DNA of 64,000 nucleotides from Streptomyces sp. NBC_00094 (GTDB taxonomy: Bacteria > Actinomycetota > Actinomycetes > Streptomycetales > Streptomycetaceae), in NCBI RefSeq assembly GCF_026343125.1, contig NZ_JAPEMB010000001.1, positions 6,329,501 through 6,393,500 of the forward strand. The letters run 5' to 3'. Made by a program: the position numbers and the translations under genes. The notes below the pieces were generated by a model that was not told where the DNA came from, did not search any database, and saw nothing but the letters and a program-made list of their open reading frames with translations. How positions within the stretch are numbered: position 1 is the stretch's first letter; each line of letters begins with the position of its first letter. This document shows positions 893 to 8,520 of the stretch, in pieces.

Positions 893-1912
893 CTAGGGGG
901 TGTCGTTCCGCGTGTGCGGGGGGACCGGAGCGGCGAGCCAGCCCCGCTGCGAGGCCAGCGCCCCGGCCTGGAAGCGGCTTCGCGCCCCCAGCGTGTCCAT
1001 GACCCCGGCCACGATCCGGCGCGTGGTGCGGGTGGAGATGCCGAGCCGCTTCGCGATGGCCTCGTCGGTGTGCCCGTGCTCCAGGAGGCGAAGCGTCTCG
1101 CGTTCCTGGGACGTGAGTCCGCGCTCATCGCGCGTTCTCGCCGTGCCGAGCGGGTCGGCCCGGTCCCAGGCGAGGTCGAACAGGGCGCACAGCGCGGTGA
1201 GAGTACCGTCCCCCGTGAGCAGGACAGCGCTGTGCCCGCTGTTCTCGCCGTACACCGGCAGGATGGCGACACGCCGGTCCATGACGGTCATGCGGACCGG
1301 GATGTCGGGGGTGGTGCGTACCTCGCCGCCCATGGCCGCGAGCCAGTTCGCGTAGTCGGTCCCGGCCGGGTTGTTGCGTACGGACTCGGGATACAGGGTG
1401 CGCATCCGCACGCCGCGGGACAGCAGACTCGCGTCCAGTGGCTTGGCCGATTCGATGTTCTGCGCGTCGGGTGCGTCCGGAACGAACGCCATGACCTCAC
1501 TGTCGATGTGGCGGCTCAGCTCGGCCAACCGGTCGCGTATCCGGTCCACCCCGACGAGCGTCTCCACACCGGGAGAGTCCGTGAGGGGCTGGAAGCCCAC
1601 CCAGTCCGCGATGAGTTGGGCGGCCGCGGCACGGGACGTCTCGAGCTTCTGCTGCTGTGCGAGTAACTCCGCCTGCTGGCGCGCGAGCAGCGACTCCATC
1701 GCCAGTTCGGGGCTGACGGGGTGGAGCCGGGTGTGCTCCGTGGCGGAAGGGCGCAGGAGAGACAGTTCGCTGAGCCGGTCGAGCGCCGCCCGGACTTCGG
1801 CCTCGGACAGAGAGAGGGAGGCCGCCAGCTCCGCGACCCCCCAGTCGGCGTGCTGCAGCAGCATTCGGTAGATGTGTTCCGCTCGGGTGTCGATCCCCAG
1901 CGCGTCAAGCAT
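893..1912 (-). CDS. TrmB-like / LuxR-type transcriptional regulator
   Basis: This is a 339-residue DNA-binding protein with two helix-turn-helix regions. The N-terminal 60 residues (GIDTRAEHIYRMLL onward) resemble a TrmB-type winged helix. The last 65 residues carry a LuxR-type HTH (LTSQERETLRLL, then EAIAKRLGISTRTTRR). The middle resembles the sensor region of many Streptomyces regulators of this architecture, whose ligands are unknown. The ATG at 1912 is preferred because GGGGGG lies about 8 bases upstream; an in-frame ATG at 1939 would add nine residues. It is transcribed away from the small genes and wall hydrolases that start at 2054 and is a plausible local regulator of them, but that is inference. 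Confidence 0.85.
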   Translation of the reverse strand: MLDALGIDTRAEHIYRMLLQHADWGVAELAASLSLSEAEVRAALDRLSELSLLRPSATEHTRLHPVSPELAMESLLARQQAELLAQQQKLETSRAAAAQLIADWVGFQPLTDSPGVETLVGVDRIRDRLAELSRHIDSEVMAFVPDAPDAQNIESAKPLDASLLSRGVRMRTLYPESVRNNPAGTDYANWLAAMGGEVRTTPDIPVRMTVMDRRVAILPVYGENSGHSAVLLTGDGTLTALCALFDLAWDRADPLGTARTRDERGLTSQERETLRLLEHGHTDEAIAKRLGISTRTTRRIVAGVMDTLGARSRFQAGALASQRGWLAAPVPPHTRNDTP

Positions 1913-2053
1913 GTGTGTACCCCCCATAGATACGTCCACGAATCATCACACGGTGTCCATCGCACTGTTGCTCGAGTGACCGAAGTGCATGCTGATGTGG
2001 CCGGTTGTGGCCTTGGCCGCTTGGGGACGCCCGAGACCGGAGGAACGTGCGGC

Positions 2054-2534: not shown

Positions 2535-2648
2535 GTGTCGCGTGCCCGTCTTGTCGCCACCCTGTTTCTCGCGTTCACCTTCACCGGAATCAGCATCAGC
2601 ACAATGACGGACAGCGTGCTGGTCAAGGCCACGCTCGGCTGGCAGTGA
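2535..2648 (+). CDS. Candidate 37-residue secreted or membrane peptide
   Basis: A short reading frame opens with GTG at 2535, seven bases after GAGGA (2523-2527). It encodes two basic residues, then a hydrophobic segment (LVATLFLAFTFTGISI), then a short polar tail ending in LGWQ. This is the layout of a single-pass membrane peptide or of a signal peptide with a very small product. It lies 69 bases before the first wall hydrolase gene on the same strand. No family was recognised. The Shine-Dalgarno and hydrophobicity are seen directly; expression is inferred. Confidence 0.45.
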   Translation: MSRARLVATLFLAFTFTGISISTMTDSVLVKATLGWQ

Positions 2649-2717: not shown

Positions 2718-4445
2718 ATGACCAGAATCAGGACCACCCGCCGCATCACCGTCGCCCTGTGCGCGGCCACGGCCCTCGGACTCGGCGCGACCGGTGCCGC
2801 GTTCGCCCAGCAGGGCGGAGCGGCGGACAGGCATCCGGCCGCGGAGGCGGGTCGACCGGACTATCCAGGCGCGGGACAGGGCAAAGTGACCCCGGTGCCC
2901 GAGGAGTTCCGCAGGGACACCGCCCAGCGGAGTCTCACCGCAGCGGCGGGGATCACGCGGAGCGAGGTCATCACGCGGGCGAAGTCCTGGGTCGGAAAGG
3001 GCCTGGACTACAGCTGGACGAACTACTACCAGGGCTACCGGATGGACTGCTCCGGTTACGTCTCCATGGCGTGGGGCCTCGACTCCTCGCTGGCGACCCC
3101 GAACTTCGTGCCGGGGACGGCCGAGTGGATAACGAAGGCCGACCTCAAGCCCGGTGACGCCCTGCTCGACGACGACGCCGGCGCGGGCGGCCACATCGTG
3201 CTCTTCGAGGAGTGGACGAGCAGCGACAAGACCGCCTACTGGGGCTACGAGTTCACCCCCAGCGGCGTCCACCACCGCATCGTTCCGTACCCCTACTACA
3301 GCGGTAACGGGCCTTTCGCTCCGGTGCGCCTGAAGGGCATCGTGGACGACGTCGTCCCGGAGCCGGAGGAGCCGAAGGAGGACACCTCGTCCCGGGTGAA
3401 CGCGGATTTCAACGGTGACGGCCGGGATGACGTGGCGGCGCTGTACGGGTATGGCGACGGTTCGGTGGCGTTGTTCACGTTCCTGGCGCGGGCGGATGGT
3501 GGTTTCGATGCTCCGCTGAAGTCGTGGACGCGTCCGCCGGGTAACTGGACTTTCAAGAGTGTGAAGTTGACGGCTGGGGATTACGACGGCAATGGTCGTG
3601 CCGATCTCGCGGCGATGTACGACTATGCCGATGGTTCGGTGGCGTTGTTCACGTTCACGTCGGAGGCGAACGGTGGTTTCGCGGATCCGGTGAAGTCGTG
3701 GACGACGGCGCCGGGTAACTGGTGGCCGGAGAACGTGAAGTTGGCGTCGGGTGACTTCGACGGCAACGGCCGGGACGACGTGGGCGCGTTCTACGGGTAC
3801 AGCGACGGTGCGGCCGCGCTCTACACCTTCAAGCCCGACGCCTCGGGTCTGTTCGGCACCCCGCTGCGTTCCTGGAACGTGCCGGAGAACTACTGGTGGG
3901 GCGAGAACGTCGAGCTCGCCGTCGGTGACTTCGACGGCAACGGCCGCGACGACCTGGCCGCGATGTACGGGTACGAGGACGGCACCGTCTCGATGTTCAC
4001 GTTCAAGTCCCAGACGGACGGCGGATTCGTGGCACCGGTGAAGTCCTGGACCACGGAGCCGGGCAACTGGAACTTCTCCAACGTCAAGCTGACCGCGGGC
4101 GACTACGACGGCAACGGCCGGTCGGACGTGGCCGCGTTCTACGGCTACAGCGACGGCCGCGCGGCGCTCTACACCTTCCCGACCAAGACCGACGGCACCT
4201 TCAACAGCCCGGTGAAGTCCTGGAACGTGCCCGCGGACAACTGGTGGGGCGAGAACGTCCAGATCGTCTCGGGCGACAACGACGGCAACGGCCGGTCGGA
4301 CGTGGCGGCCTTCTACGGCTACAGCGACGGCCGCGCGGCGCTCTACACCTTCAAGTCGGACACGGCGGGCCTGTTCGGTACCCCGCTGCGCTCGTGGAAC
4401 GTGCCGGCGAACTACTGGTGGGGCGAGCACGTGAAGCTCGGCTGA
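2718..4445 (+). CDS. Secreted NlpC/P60-like hydrolase with six VCBS/FG-GAP repeats
   Basis: A 575-residue exported protein, probably a peptidoglycan peptidase or amidase. Residues 1-30 form a Sec signal ending AFA. The catalytic region (about 80-205) has the NlpC/P60-type DCSGYV motif with Cys111 as likely nucleophile, and GGHIVLF with His159 as its partner. Residues from about 226 to the end form six repeats of roughly 50-60 residues, each with a calcium-type loop such as DFNGDGRDD followed by aromatic residues (YGY, LFTF). The ATG at 2718 is chosen over 2703 because GGAAAGG lies six bases before it. It is first of three consecutive genes sharing the repeat domain, so the repeats probably set localisation, perhaps wall binding. 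Confidence 0.86.
   Translation: MTRIRTTRRITVALCAATALGLGATGAAFAQQGGAADRHPAAEAGRPDYPGAGQGKVTPVPEEFRRDTAQRSLTAAAGITRSEVITRAKSWVGKGLDYSWTNYYQGYRMDCSGYVSMAWGLDSSLATPNFVPGTAEWITKADLKPGDALLDDDAGAGGHIVLFEEWTSSDKTAYWGYEFTPSGVHHRIVPYPYYSGNGPFAPVRLKGIVDDVVPEPEEPKEDTSSRVNADFNGDGRDDVAALYGYGDGSVALFTFLARADGGFDAPLKSWTRPPGNWTFKSVKLTAGDYDGNGRADLAAMYDYADGSVALFTFTSEANGGFADPVKSWTTAPGNWWPENVKLASGDFDGNGRDDVGAFYGYSDGAAALYTFKPDASGLFGTPLRSWNVPENYWWGENVELAVGDFDGNGRDDLAAMYGYEDGTVSMFTFKSQTDGGFVAPVKSWTTEPGNWNFSNVKLTAGDYDGNGRSDVAAFYGYSDGRAALYTFPTKTDGTFNSPVKSWNVPADNWWGENVQIVSGDNDGNGRSDVAAFYGYSDGRAALYTFKSDTAGLFGTPLRSWNVPANYWWGEHVKLG
3388..3783 (+). repeat. 396-bp tract identical to 5921-6316
   Basis: Bases 3388-3783 read the same as 5921-6316 (constant offset 2533), covering the first two VCBS repeats and the start of the third in two neighbouring genes. 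Within it many codons end in T or use TTG (GAT, GGT, TTG, AAT), unlike the G/C-ending codons around it. The exact identity at synonymous sites points to recent duplication or gene conversion. Confidence 0.9.
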
Positions 4446-4489
4446 TCCGGACTCGGCCGAGCATGTGACGCCCGGCCCGTCCGCATCCG

Positions 4490-4525
4490 GTCGGGGCCGC
4501 CCGGCACCTGCCGGGCGGCCCCGAC
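4490..4525 (+). terminator. Perfect 17-bp hairpin after the first wall-hydrolase gene
   Basis: Arms 4490-4506 and 4509-4525 are perfect reverse complements with a CC loop. It sits 45 bases after the stop at 4445 and 75 bases before the next start. There is no T-run, which is usual for Streptomyces hairpin terminators. Confidence 0.7.
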
Positions 4526-4599
4526 CCGTGTCCCGCCCCTCTCACCACCCCGCCTCCCTTCGTGGCCCTTCGCCCCGTACACCGGAAGTGAGCCCCACC

Positions 4600-6978
4600 A
4601 TGCGCACATCTCCTGCCCGTACCACTCGAAAACCGCACAGAGGCTGGACCGTCGCCGCCGCGCTGACGGCTCTCGCGTTACCCGGCGCGACCGCCTCCGC
4701 GGCGTCCGCCCTCCCGCAGGTCCCCGAGGTGTCCGCATCGGCCGGCGACTCCAAGCCGGTGGAGTACCGGGGGCTGCGCCTGGACGTCCCCGCGCACTGG
4801 CGCGTCGTCGACCTGGAGAAGTCGCCCGGCACGTGCGTGCGGTTCGACACGGCCACCGTCTACCTCGGGCGCCCCGGAGCACAGCAGTCCTGCCCCGCCG
4901 ACGCGGTCGGCGAGCGGGCGGACTCCCTGGTGGTGGAACCCCTGGCCGGGGCCGCCGTCCCGGACCCCGCGTCCGTGCTCCGCGTGCCGGCCGGTCACCC
5001 CCTTCCGGCCCGCGTCGCGGCCACCACGGGCCGCGAGTCGACCGTGGCCGTCGAGGGCGCCGGACTGCTCGTCACGGCCGTCTACGGCACGACCCCCGAC
5101 ACGGTCTCCCGCGTCATCGGCTCCGGCCGCATCGGGCCGGCGGCGGTCCCGGGCGAGCTCCCCGCTCCCCGCGCGGCAGCCTCGATGGCGGTGGCGGCAG
5201 CACCCAGCACGGGATACACCGGCAAGGCCTTCGACGCCTGTGCGGCCCCCTCGGCGAGCCTGATGCAGGCATGGCAGGCCTCGCCCTACCGGGGCGTCGG
5301 CATCTACATCGGAGGCCCCACCAGGGTCTGCGCCCAGCCCAACCTGACCGCGGGATGGGTGTCCGGTCGTACGGCCGAGGGCTGGCACATGATCCCGATC
5401 TACGCGGGGCTCCAGGCCAGGGGAATCACGCCCGACGTGGCCACCACACAGGGCAGGCAATCCGCCGACGACGCGGTGGACAGGGCCAAGGCGCTCGGTT
5501 TCGCGGCCCAGACCGTGCTGTACACGGACATGGAGCCCTACCCCTCGACGACCTACCGCACCCGGGTCCTCGACTACCTCTCCGGCTACAGCGCGAGGGT
5601 CCGCGAACTGGGCTTCCGTCCGGGCGTGTACATCAACGTCCAGAACTCCGGCGACCTGGCCGCCCTGCACAGCAACTCCCGCTACGCCAAGCCCGACGTG
5701 CTGTGGGTCGCCAACTGGAACGGCGTGGCGGACGTCTCCAACTCCTCGATGGGCCTGCCCGGCAGCACCTACTGGCAGGGCAAGCGACGCGTGCACCAGT
5801 ACGCGGGCGACGTGAGCGAGACGCACGGCGGAGTGTCCCTCAACATCGACCGCAACTACGTGGACGTCGCCCCCGACACCGCCCCGCAGCCCGAGCCCGA
5901 GACATGGCGCGAGGACGCGGCGTCCCGGGTGAACGCGGATTTCAACGGTGACGGCCGGGATGACGTGGCGGCGCTGTACGGGTATGGCGACGGTTCGGTG
6001 GCGTTGTTCACGTTCCTGGCGCGGGCGGATGGTGGTTTCGATGCTCCGCTGAAGTCGTGGACGCGTCCGCCGGGTAACTGGACTTTCAAGAGTGTGAAGT
6101 TGACGGCTGGGGATTACGACGGCAATGGTCGTGCCGATCTCGCGGCGATGTACGACTATGCCGATGGTTCGGTGGCGTTGTTCACGTTCACGTCGGAGGC
6201 GAACGGTGGTTTCGCGGATCCGGTGAAGTCGTGGACGACGGCGCCGGGTAACTGGTGGCCGGAGAACGTGAAGTTGGCGTCGGGTGACTTCGACGGCAAC
6301 GGCCGGGACGACGTGGCCGCGTTCTACGGGTACAGCGACGGTGCGGCCGCGCTCTACACCTTCGCCTCGGACGCCTCGGGTCTGTTCGGTACCCCGCTCC
6401 GTTCGTGGAACGTCCCGGAGAACTACTGGTGGGGCGAGAACGTCAAGTTGGCCTCGGGTGACTTCGACGGCAACGGCCGTGACGACGTGGGCGCGTTCTA
6501 CGGGTACGAGGACGGCCGGGCGGCTCTGTTCACGTTCAAGTCGCGTACGGACGGCGGATTCGCGGACCCCGTGAAGTCCTGGAACGTGCCGGCGAACTAC
6601 TGGTGGGGCGAGAACGTCAAGCTGACGGCTGCCGACTACGACGGCAACGGCCGGGCCGACGTGGCCGCGATGTACGGCTACGAGGACGGTGGAGTCGCTC
6701 TCTTCACCTTCACCACGAAGACGGACGGCACGTTCGAGAACCCGGTGAAGTCCTGGACCACCGAACCCGGCAACTGGTGGGTGGAGAACGTCCAGATCGC
6801 CTCCGGTGACTTCGACGGCAACGGTCGCGGCGACGTGGCGGCGTTCTACGGCTACAGCGACGGCCGGGCGGCGTTCTACACGTTCAAGTCGGACGCCTCG
6901 GGCCTGTTCGGCACCCCGCTGCGCTCCTGGAACGTCCCGGAGAACTACTGGTGGGGCGACCACGTGAAGCTCGGCTGA
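4600..6978 (+). CDS. Secreted DUF1906 glycoside-hydrolase-like protein with six VCBS repeats
   Basis: A 792-residue exported protein. A signal peptide (TVAAALTALALPG) precedes a region of about 170 residues with no recognised family. Residues about 207-425 match DUF1906, the Rv2525c-like TIM-barrel related to lysozyme-type glycoside hydrolases: GVGIYIGG, IPIYAG, TVLYTDMEPY and VHQYAGD are visible. From about residue 442 the six VCBS/FG-GAP repeats follow. The ATG at 4600 has GGAAGTGA upstream; an open frame extends to 4465 without a better start. Codon 27 is TTA (4678-4680), the only one I saw in this gene, so translation should need the bldA leucyl-tRNA and be tied to development. Confidence 0.85.
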   Translation: MRTSPARTTRKPHRGWTVAAALTALALPGATASAASALPQVPEVSASAGDSKPVEYRGLRLDVPAHWRVVDLEKSPGTCVRFDTATVYLGRPGAQQSCPADAVGERADSLVVEPLAGAAVPDPASVLRVPAGHPLPARVAATTGRESTVAVEGAGLLVTAVYGTTPDTVSRVIGSGRIGPAAVPGELPAPRAAASMAVAAAPSTGYTGKAFDACAAPSASLMQAWQASPYRGVGIYIGGPTRVCAQPNLTAGWVSGRTAEGWHMIPIYAGLQARGITPDVATTQGRQSADDAVDRAKALGFAAQTVLYTDMEPYPSTTYRTRVLDYLSGYSARVRELGFRPGVYINVQNSGDLAALHSNSRYAKPDVLWVANWNGVADVSNSSMGLPGSTYWQGKRRVHQYAGDVSETHGGVSLNIDRNYVDVAPDTAPQPEPETWREDAASRVNADFNGDGRDDVAALYGYGDGSVALFTFLARADGGFDAPLKSWTRPPGNWTFKSVKLTAGDYDGNGRADLAAMYDYADGSVALFTFTSEANGGFADPVKSWTTAPGNWWPENVKLASGDFDGNGRDDVAAFYGYSDGAAALYTFASDASGLFGTPLRSWNVPENYWWGENVKLASGDFDGNGRDDVGAFYGYEDGRAALFTFKSRTDGGFADPVKSWNVPANYWWGENVKLTAADYDGNGRADVAAMYGYEDGGVALFTFTTKTDGTFENPVKSWTTEPGNWWVENVQIASGDFDGNGRGDVAAFYGYSDGRAAFYTFKSDASGLFGTPLRSWNVPENYWWGDHVKLG
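5921..6316 (+). repeat. Second copy of the 396-bp identical VCBS tract
   Basis: Identical to 3388-3783. From 6250 this gene also begins to be identical to the third wall-hydrolase gene (see 7792-8066), so this gene shares exact tracts with both neighbours. Confidence 0.9.
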
Positions 6979-6992
6979 TCCGGAACCGACTC

Positions 6993-7024
6993 AGGGCGGC
7001 GGCACCTGTCGGTGGCGCCGCCCT
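6993..7024 (+). terminator. Hairpin after the second wall-hydrolase gene
   Basis: The arms AGGGCGGCG and CGCCGCCCT pair exactly, followed by one mismatch and four more pairs, closing a TGTC loop. It starts 15 bases after the stop at 6978. It lies close to the next ribosome binding site (7039-7045), so it may attenuate rather than stop transcription. Confidence 0.55.
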
Positions 7025-7053
7025 TCCCGCACACAGACGGAGTGAGAACCTTC

Positions 7054-8520
7054 ATGGGACGCAAGACCCTTGGTACGAAAGTCGGCGGCGCGCTCACGAC
7101 GGCGCTGCTGCTGAGCGGGGCGGCCATGCTGCCGGCGTCGCCCGCGCTCGCCGCGTCGGTCGCCACCTGGGACGAGGTCGCCCAGTGCGAGAGCGGCGGA
7201 AACTGGTCCACCAACACGGGCAACGGCTTCTACGGCGGCCTCCAGTTCAAGCTCAGCACCTGGAGGGATTTCGGCGGCAGCCGTTTCGCGACCTATCCGC
7301 ACCTCGCGACCAAGAAGGAACAGATCCTCATCGGCGAAGAGGTCCTCGCCGGCCAGGGGGAACGTGCCTGGCCCACCTGCGGCCCCCGCGCGGGCCTGGG
7401 CAGTGACACCGCGGAGCCCTACCCCAGCGAATCCGCCGAGCAGGCCTGGCGGGACGACGCGGCCTCCCGGGTGAACGCGGACTTCAACGGCGACGGCCGC
7501 GACGACAACGCGGCCTTCTACGGCTACGCCGACGGTTCGGTCGCCCTCTTCACCTTCCTCGGCAAGAGCGACGGCGGGTTCGCCAACCCCGTCAAGTCGT
7601 GGAACGTGACCCCCGGCAACTGGACCTACCGCAGCATCAAGCCCGTGGCGGGCGACTTCAACGGCGACGGACGCGCGGACCTCGCGGCGATGTACGACTA
7701 CGCCGACGGATCGGTGGCGCTGTTCACGTTCCTGTCCAAGCCCGACGGTGGTTTCGCCGCCCCGGTGAAGTCGTGGACGACGGCGCCGGGCAACTGGTGG
7801 CCGGAGAACGTGAAGTTGGCGTCGGGTGACTTCGACGGCAACGGCCGGGACGACGTGGCCGCGTTCTACGGGTACAGCGACGGTGCGGCCGCGCTCTACA
7901 CCTTCGCCTCGGACGCCTCGGGTCTGTTCGGTACCCCGCTCCGTTCGTGGAACGTCCCGGAGAACTACTGGTGGGGCGAGAACGTCAAGTTGGCCTCGGG
8001 TGACTTCGACGGCAACGGCCGTGACGACGTGGGCGCGTTCTACGGGTACGAGGACGGCCGGGCGGCCCTGTTCACGTTCAAGTCCCGGACGGACGGCGGA
8101 TTCGCGGATCCCGTGAAGTCCTGGAACGTGCCGGAGAACTACTGGTGGGGGAAGAACGTCAAGCTGACGGCGGGCGACTACGACGGCAACGGCCGGGCCG
8201 ACGTGGCCGCGATGTACGGCTACGAGGACGGCGGTATCTCCCTCTTCACCTTCACCACGAAGACGGACGGCACGTTCGAGAACCCGGTGAAGTCCTGGAC
8301 CACCGAACCCGGCAACTGGTGGGTGGAGAACGTCCGGATCGCCTCCGGCGACTACGACGGCAACGGCCGGTCGGACGTGTCCGCGTTCTACGGCTACAGC
8401 GACGGCCGGGCGGCGTTCTACACGTTCAAGTCGGACGCCTCGGGCCTGTTCGGCACCCCGCTGCGCTCCTGGAACGTCCCGGAGAACTACTGGTGGGGCA
8501 GCGCCGTCACCCTCGGCTGA
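7054..8520 (+). CDS. Secreted Rpf-like transglycosylase with six VCBS repeats
   Basis: A 488-residue exported protein. Residues 1-33 are a Sec signal ending PALA. Residues about 36-115 form a resuscitation-promoting-factor-type transglycosylase domain: WDEVAQCESGGNW with the catalytic Glu, then YGGLQFKLSTW. Such domains cleave the glycan strand of peptidoglycan. Six VCBS/FG-GAP repeats fill residues 139-488. The ATG at 7054 is preceded by GGAGTGA at 7039-7045. It is third of the three hydrolases with a common repeat domain; with different bond specificities they may act together on the wall. The gene ends convergently 34 bases from the PPK2 gene. Confidence 0.88.
   Translation: MGRKTLGTKVGGALTTALLLSGAAMLPASPALAASVATWDEVAQCESGGNWSTNTGNGFYGGLQFKLSTWRDFGGSRFATYPHLATKKEQILIGEEVLAGQGERAWPTCGPRAGLGSDTAEPYPSESAEQAWRDDAASRVNADFNGDGRDDNAAFYGYADGSVALFTFLGKSDGGFANPVKSWNVTPGNWTYRSIKPVAGDFNGDGRADLAAMYDYADGSVALFTFLSKPDGGFAAPVKSWTTAPGNWWPENVKLASGDFDGNGRDDVAAFYGYSDGAAALYTFASDASGLFGTPLRSWNVPENYWWGENVKLASGDFDGNGRDDVGAFYGYEDGRAALFTFKSRTDGGFADPVKSWNVPENYWWGKNVKLTAGDYDGNGRADVAAMYGYEDGGISLFTFTTKTDGTFENPVKSWTTEPGNWWVENVRIASGDYDGNGRSDVSAFYGYSDGRAAFYTFKSDASGLFGTPLRSWNVPENYWWGSAVTLG
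7792..8066 (+). repeat. 275-bp tract identical to 6250-6524
   Basis: Bases 7792-8066 match 6250-6524 without a difference (offset 1542), covering VCBS repeats 3 and 4 of the second and third hydrolase genes. The flanks differ at synonymous sites (for example CTG versus CCTG context at 6525/8067), so the exact tract is bounded, as expected from gene conversion. Confidence 0.88.

Follow-up and report, generated by a model that had tools for sequence, protein, structure and literature searches.

Why do three consecutive genes for secreted proteins with different catalytic domains all end in nearly the same repeat domain? The question arises in a stretch of 64,000 nucleotides from Streptomyces sp. 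NBC_00094 (contig NZ_JAPEMB010000001.1, positions 6,329,501 to 6,393,500), here called the window, in which three neighbouring genes encode putative wall hydrolases that are each joined to a six-bladed propeller module. Comparison with other genomes of the genus showed that the window trio is one case of a recurrent Streptomyces system. On balance we favour the reading that such a set would be a team of enzymes aimed by a lectin, probably at a foreign target. The three genes and their domains are the following.

2718 to 4445, plus strand: gene 1, secreted NlpC/P60-like protein with a six-blade propeller
2928 to 3353, plus strand: NlpC-like catalytic domain of gene 1, recognised by its near-invariant motif
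3390 to 4442, plus strand: propeller module of gene 1, UmbA4-lectin-like by sequence and by AlphaFold2/Foldseek
4600 to 6978, plus strand: gene 2, secreted Rv2525c/DUF1906 glycoside-hydrolase-like protein with a six-blade propeller
5266 to 5862, plus strand: Rv2525c_GlyHyd-like domain (PF08924) of gene 2 (E=3.9e-45, 154.9 bits against a cut-off of 27.2)
5923 to 6975, plus strand: propeller module of gene 2 (PDB 9oee, E=1.4e-64)
7054 to 8520, plus strand: gene 3, secreted Rpf-like protein with a six-blade propeller
7153 to 7380, plus strand: transglycosylase-like (Rpf) domain (PF06737) of gene 3 with a CESGGNW motif (Pfam E=7.2e-32)
7465 to 8517, plus strand: propeller module of gene 3

The first-pass annotation had described three consecutive secreted proteins with different catalytic modules and one shared six-repeat domain, which was confirmed by Pfam, by the open reading frames and by a propeller identity of 77-89%. 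All three N-termini are signal-peptide-like (judged by eye), and Pfam FG-GAP_3 repeats are present in all three proteins. Each propeller comprises 351 amino acids, that is six repeats of about 58, and the pairwise protein identities are 86, 77 and 89%. A chance or low-complexity likeness of the DxDG repeats was ruled out, because the DNA is identical over 394 bp between genes 1 and 2 and over 275 bp between genes 2 and 3.

Peptidoglycan is the substrate of NlpC-, CHAP-, M23- and Rpf-type enzymes; for the Rv2525c-like type we know of no proven activity. Gene 1 gave no Pfam match to NLPC_P60 (PF00877) at E≤1. Its DCSG...H motif is present, with DCSG and H near-invariant across 38 sequences, and four homologues (L115, L117, L118 and L165) pass the NLPC_P60 cut-off with 23.8-27.1 against 23 bits, with others lying just under it. 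In the AlphaFold2 model of gene 1 (overall predicted local distance difference test score 64.8) the NlpC part reached 28-62 per block of ten residues. The Glu of the gene 3 motif, presumably the catalytic Glu, is near-invariant across 25 sequences; the protein stays under the NCBIfam Rpf equivalog cut-offs, with 104.2 against 200 bits (RpfC) and 96.3 against 180 bits (Rpf). Choline-binding repeats were not found in the window proteins (Pfam, E≤1).

The repeats had been proposed to target a common ligand on the wall or surface, and homology to a lectin supports this. The best PDB sequence match of the propeller is 9oee (9oee_A, E=1.4e-64), entitled 'S. griseus TUA bound UmbA4 complexes', followed by 8w20/8w22 (8.3e-16). 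AlphaFold2 predicted a fair-to-confident propeller for gene 1, with 60-93 per block of ten residues from residue 231 on, and a Foldseek search with this model again returned 9oee first (E=9.2e-33), the next being the propeller lectins PHL/PLL, AofleA, AAL and AFL. The structure prediction suggested by the first-pass annotation thus gives a propeller whose closest fold is the UmbA4 lectin. The protein of locus L053, which has trypsin, B_lectin and FG-GAP matches, aligns over almost the whole 9oee chain.

The UmbA4 propeller is reported to bind a teichuronic acid linked to wall teichoic acid, W668, N633 and Y551 being contact residues (PMC13274773). These residues were placed on the 9oee chain with a numbering offset of 31, the sole fitting one among 0-59. 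A placement of the contacts on the aromatic residue after a blade's last Trp was rejected, since offset 31 alone fits all three residues. The two aromatic contacts are F/Y in six of six window blades (by eye). The window propeller is thus likely to be a carbohydrate-binding lectin. An origin from phage endolysins was also rejected, because the propeller had no match at E≤1e-5 in 50,697 phage records.

The spread of such proteins was investigated with the NlpC-like domain, which occurs in 317 of 392 genomes of the genus (E≤1e-15). We took 32 regions: 30 that follow directly on the own genome, G428 and G468 in the ranking, plus one each from the lower-ranked genomes G151 and G060. An Rpf, Rv2525c-like or M23 neighbour was present in 10 of them, and four more (L155, L163, L167 and L169) have a neighbour with the same module. 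The N-terminal domain of these four partners is lysozyme-like by eye (GLFQQR/GLYQQR), has no trusted Pfam match there and is possibly an unrecognised glycan-cutting family. The complete trio of NlpC, Rv2525c-like and Rpf proteins recurs in the order of the window and with other modules in L160 and L164. It also recurs in the order Rv2525c-NlpC-Rpf in L158, and over 10 kb on both strands in L204; the modules of these two are not FG-GAP, and nothing in PDB and nothing meaningful in Pfam matches that of L158. Rv2525c-like proteins adjoin NlpC and/or Rpf genes in eight of nine loci, L119 standing alone. The module of L160 matches 8w20_C (E=3.9e-21), which is taken to be UmbA1 of the Umb1 particle (PMC11062931). 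Six plasmid records contain NlpC+Rpf, NlpC+Rv2525c, NlpC+M23 and CHAP+Rpf neighbours whose repeats belong to other types; three of seven NlpC plasmid records (H53, H54 and H56) were left out of this survey.

Some sets have further members that carry the module of their locus: a SASA-type carbohydrate esterase in L165 (8504-10867) and an Exo_endo_phos, nuclease-like protein in L159 (8536-10266). The CHAP+Rpf sets of L208, L213 and L218 have module repeats like 'SRYVMVNGAALHISA', which were not recognised as a propeller.

Matching of the modules was analysed in 29 loci that contain at least two recognised enzymes with modules of at least 150 amino acids, including the window, S. hydrogenans and loci sampled through a regulator gene (see below). 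Of the 41 module pairs within loci, 39 are 54-100% identical, with complete identity in L118; the two remaining pairs involve an extra Rpf of L218 and reach 28-32%. The mean score of the 41 pairs is 0.737 of the self score. When locus labels were shuffled within each enzyme type, the mean was 0.178 and the maximum 0.291, so that the observed value was reached in none of 2000 permutations. When each module cluster is represented by a single locus (11 loci, 17 pairs), the value is 0.811 against 0.164 permuted (maximum 0.487, none of 5000). Of 64 modules, 34 have their closest counterpart within their own locus, and L218 is the sole locus split between module clusters. Matched modules in 29 loci, of which one also holds an additional enzyme that does not match, therefore support the proposal that the enzymes act as a set. 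A specific link to the spore wall or to germination, which the first-pass annotation had considered, found no support.

Between loci, the modules are exchanged. The median identity of the catalytic domains across loci is 51% for NlpC, 68% for Rpf, 58% for Rv2525c-like and 60% for CHAP, and modules on the same enzyme type have a median score of 0.03-0.13. Two or more enzyme types are represented in each of 11 module clusters when the threshold is 0.35 (8 clusters at 0.3, 12 at 0.4 and 0.45). The NlpC tree requires at least 15 module changes for 14 clusters, and the Rpf tree, which rests on 79 columns and has few supported branches, 15 changes for 11 clusters. On both trees module labels cluster more than they do after shuffling, which indicates that swapping recurs without being constant. 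Three genomes from which two matched sets were fetched carry differing modules, with scores of 0.23 (G391), 0.09-0.10 (G060) and 0.09 (G031).

The own genome (8.19 Mb) contains only three strong copies of the window propeller; the next is 41% identical and resides on a PLD-like protein. In a sample of 295 genomes of the genus, the propeller is matched at E≤1e-30 in 45, counting the own one; elsewhere than in the own genome, identity never exceeds 53%. Five loci were detected by a scan of named genomes with two short peptide patterns, which finds close relatives only. S. hydrogenans has an Rv2525c-Rpf pair on one contig and the NlpC gene at the end of another, so that the proposed search for adjacent genes sharing one repeat domain yielded this pair, beside the matched sets with other modules. 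In S. omiyaensis and S. termitum the Rpf gene follows a partial propeller, and the NlpC part lies on a separate contig; the part unique to the Rv2525c-like protein was not found in these drafts, whose contigs break within the repeats. In DNA, this partial propeller matches gene 2 at 86.0% (S. omiyaensis) and 84.6% (S. termitum) identity, gene 3 at 84.6% and 84.4%, gene 1 at 80.6%, and the gene 2 module of S. hydrogenans at 90.1% and 89.3%. In Streptomyces sp. SirexAA-E, the NlpC-propeller gene alone was found of the three.

The first-pass annotation had named a wide occurrence of the repeat domain on unrelated proteins as an argument against its reading, and this holds in part. FG-GAP repeats as such are common (91 FG-GAP_3 matches at E≤0.001 in the own genome), and ten related propeller proteins comprised by Pfam three trypsin-type, three ricin-type, one PLD-like and two weakly GDPD-like proteins and one with FG-GAP only. 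The two GDPD-like assignments are below the cut-off, and one of these proteins came from the named-genome scan. But matched hydrolase sets also recur. UmbA4-like propellers joined to domains that resemble GDPD only weakly, with scores under the Pfam cut-off, are encoded in L082 (5672-7993) and L044; in SirexAA-E the gene diverges from the neighbouring NlpC-propeller gene. Speculatively, teichoic acid itself could be cleaved by a GDPD-type enzyme that carries a lectin of this kind.

Three further features lie upstream of the trio or within it.

896 to 1939, minus strand: divergent regulator with a C-terminal LuxR (GerE) helix-turn-helix (GerE 33.7 bits against a cut-off of 23.5)
2535 to 2648, plus strand: possible small open reading frame of 37 amino acids before gene 1, with weak local similarity; it may not be a gene
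4489 to 4526, plus strand: hairpin with a 17-bp stem between genes 1 and 2, from the fold of 4446-4595

Linkage to such a LuxR-type regulator holds for part of the sets. Homologues (E≤2e-76) are present in 11 of 43 other loci and divergent from the enzyme genes in eight of these 11; the remaining ones are on the same strand (L153) or face the Rpf gene (L161 and L162). L183, an arbitrary stretch of the own genome, is outside all enzyme counts. Matches of the regulator N-terminus to winged-helix profiles are below cut-off, and 'TrmB-like' is our assumed label for it. Two strong copies and 14 weaker ones occur in the own genome, and homologues in 154 of 392 genomes of the genus (E≤1e-65). Starting from the regulator, we sampled the 80 best of those not yet included (in L207, L211 and L224 no regulator open reading frame was picked). 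One of five enzyme types was found in 20 of the 80 regions, 17 of these among the 22 best-scoring, and matched enzyme pairs in 11 of the 80. In the single-enzyme regions L192 and L221 the enzyme domain is C-terminal instead. The small open reading frame has weak similarity in the S. hydrogenans and S. termitum loci only (E about 4e-4 to 6e-4). The fold of 4446-4595 has z=-4.76, with none of 200 shuffles equally stable, and folding is less remarkable downstream of genes 2 and 3 (z=-1.66 and -2.37); the hairpin is a possible terminator or attenuator.

In the explanation that we favour, a set comprises genes for two or three secreted wall enzymes, all within some 10 kb and in many cases next to a gene for a LuxR-type regulator. 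The enzymes are drawn from NlpC-like or CHAP-like types, M23 peptidase, Rpf-like, another lysozyme-like type and Rv2525c-like, occasionally joined by an esterase or a nuclease-like protein. Their C-terminal modules of carbohydrate-binding type, alike within a locus and exchanged between loci, may anchor all enzymes of a set on one strain-specific wall glycopolymer, for which teichuronic or teichoic acid are candidates; in the window this module would be the UmbA4-like six-bladed lectin. Several bonds of one wall could then be cut together. In our view the walls of competing actinobacteria are the more likely target, and module swapping would set the target range, as in umbrella toxins. The differing modules of G391, G060 and G031, together with the sets on six plasmid records, fit a target range better than one own ligand, and the resemblance of the lectin types to umbrella-toxin lectins (the 9oee and 8w20 matches) also leans towards non-self. 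A bolder version, which we advance tentatively and at slightly less than an even chance, is a genus-wide polymorphic weapon that uses enzymes in place of a toxin: one exchangeable lectin, present as a copy on each enzyme and kept uniform by conversion, would program a complementary set of hydrolases against one hypervariable surface glycopolymer of competitors. A change of the lectin would re-aim all cutting activities together, and the sets would share their lectin repertoire with the umbrella toxins.

Several observations weigh against this explanation. No partner was found in 18 of the 32 NlpC regions, 12 of which were negative in a module search and six of which have a C-terminus of less than 150 amino acids, too short for it. 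Modules that differ from those of their set occur on the extra Rpf of L218 and in the third genes of L182 and L112. For 30 of the 64 modules the nearest one is in another locus, and for 27 of these 30 it is on the same enzyme type there and not on a neighbour; in related sets, each enzyme's module thus often keeps its own line. Beyond the 22 best-scoring regulator-first regions an enzyme is nearby in just three of 58, and no such enzymes lie alongside the other strong regulator copy in the own genome (L191, by eye). The strong hairpin that separates genes 1 and 2 makes one simple transcript less likely. The contact Asn of UmbA4 is kept in just three of six blades of gene 2 (by eye), and a homologous lectin does not prove the same ligand, so that the precise ligand is not predicted here. 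Finally, no immunity gene was noticed beside the window set (by eye).

Could neighbouring modules match merely through duplication and gene conversion of repeat-rich sequences, with no shared function? Conversion has probably occurred in the window. Genes 1 and 2 do not differ by a single nucleotide in blades 1-2, the site of the 394-bp run, and the 275-bp run of genes 2 and 3 lies around blade 3; between genes 1 and 2 of S. hydrogenans, blades 1-2 are only 78-87% identical and blades 1-3 78-89%. The G+C content at third codon positions of blades 1-2 in genes 1 and 2 is 0.76-0.78 compared with 0.91-1.00 in other blades. From this we infer that a recent incoming tract was copied from gene to gene. 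However, the same enzyme combinations occur on mutually dissimilar modules, which conversion alone cannot yield (11 such clusters at the threshold of 0.35, 8 to 12 at the others), many sets remain matched at just 54-70% identity, and the regulator linkage is left unexplained. As a full account, conversion is therefore highly improbable.

A self-directed role, the chief rival explanation, would account for the matching within loci, since this is what a single own ligand demands: the modules would bind the producer's own teichuronic- or teichoic-type polymer, and the hydrolases would gather on its hyphal or spore wall to serve growth, separation or germination. Rpf and NlpC are classic self-remodelling enzymes. 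Swapping could follow if the own glycopolymer were hypervariable, so that every enzyme had to track its changes, and hypervariability of surface glycopolymers is reported (PMC13274773). The genes downstream of the window set, which are common to S. hydrogenans, S. omiyaensis and S. termitum (by eye), and the lack of a noticed immunity gene near it point the same way. On the other side are the genomes with two differing sets, the Rpf with another module that G083 adds in L218, the patchy occurrence of the window module and the sets on plasmids. A weak test on this side is a single probe of the own genome for a teichuronic acid locus with a WbpD-like acetyltransferase, which gave matches of only 32%. 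We consider a self-directed role rather unlikely. Ordinary secreted scavenging enzymes, held by their lectins on dead bacterial debris for nutrients, would account for the nuclease-like (L159) and esterase (L165) members carrying the locus module; matching within sets and the number of dissimilar module classes point to particular substrates more than to general ones, and this alternative appears improbable.

Among known systems, the umbrella toxins come closest. UmbA has C-terminal propeller lectins of the same kind, in many diversified classes within one genus (PMC11062931, PMC13274773), and differs in having a trypsin-like domain and in carrying a polymorphic toxin through UmbB/UmbC. In the window trio, the lectin-like module is fused straight to wall hydrolases and is shared by several enzymes. 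Membership of the window proteins in UmbA was rejected, as none of the three has a Trypsin domain match (E≤1); UmbA-like relatives in L049, L052 and L053 do show a trypsin-like domain. No ALF repeats of the UmbC type are near the window, the own genome having them only at C1:58-60 kb, about 6.3 Mb off; UmbB was not searched for.

Hydrolases of one cell that share one repeat module are familiar from the pneumococcus, where LytA, LytB, LytC and other wall hydrolases bind a teichoic-acid decoration. Those choline-binding hydrolases have a fixed ligand, scattered genes and an unrelated repeat family, whereas the Streptomyces genes are clustered and their module changes for the whole set from locus to locus. 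Actinobacterial Rpf and NlpC (RipA-type) enzymes belong to the same catalytic families and show the same NlpC-Rpf pairing; we know of no lectin propellers or matched modules among them. PF08924 is common to Rv2525c/DUF1906 proteins and gene 2, whose type adds an N-terminal region and the C-terminal module. In agreement with the first-pass annotation, which knew of no system with this layout, no description of matched lectin-hydrolase sets was found among the matches listed for open-access titles and abstract openings, a scope that leaves out most subscription papers and all preprints. If the favoured explanation is true, the sets would represent a second, enzyme-based use of the lectin kind that aims umbrella toxins, and would suggest why many secreted Streptomyces hydrolases bear VCBS/FG-GAP tails. 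As naturally matched enzymes whose shared module reports a common ligand, they would offer a direct handle on the little-known hypervariable wall glycopolymers of actinobacteria, and they could serve as selective lytic tools.

Loci of the umbrella type were also observed. At C1:56.7-61.2 kb (L072), the own genome encodes an UmbC-like ALF-repeat protein of 1130 amino acids, a frame of 328 amino acids that matches trypsin-like UmbA over a short stretch and leaves no room for a large lectin, and nearby a transposase-like open reading frame (by eye); this is perhaps a decayed umbrella locus. In L120, on plasmid pLBRS of Streptomyces sp. M54, a gene for an UmbA-like protein with Trypsin and FG-GAP matches is near one whose annotation is DddA-like double-stranded DNA deaminase toxin and which is accompanied by an Imm1 immunity gene. 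In L077 (G072), two tandem UmbA-like genes (by eye; one is UmbA-like by Pfam) adjoin sugar-biosynthesis-like genes including a WbpD-like acetyltransferase, so that lectin and glycan genes are adjacent, as reported for S. griseus.

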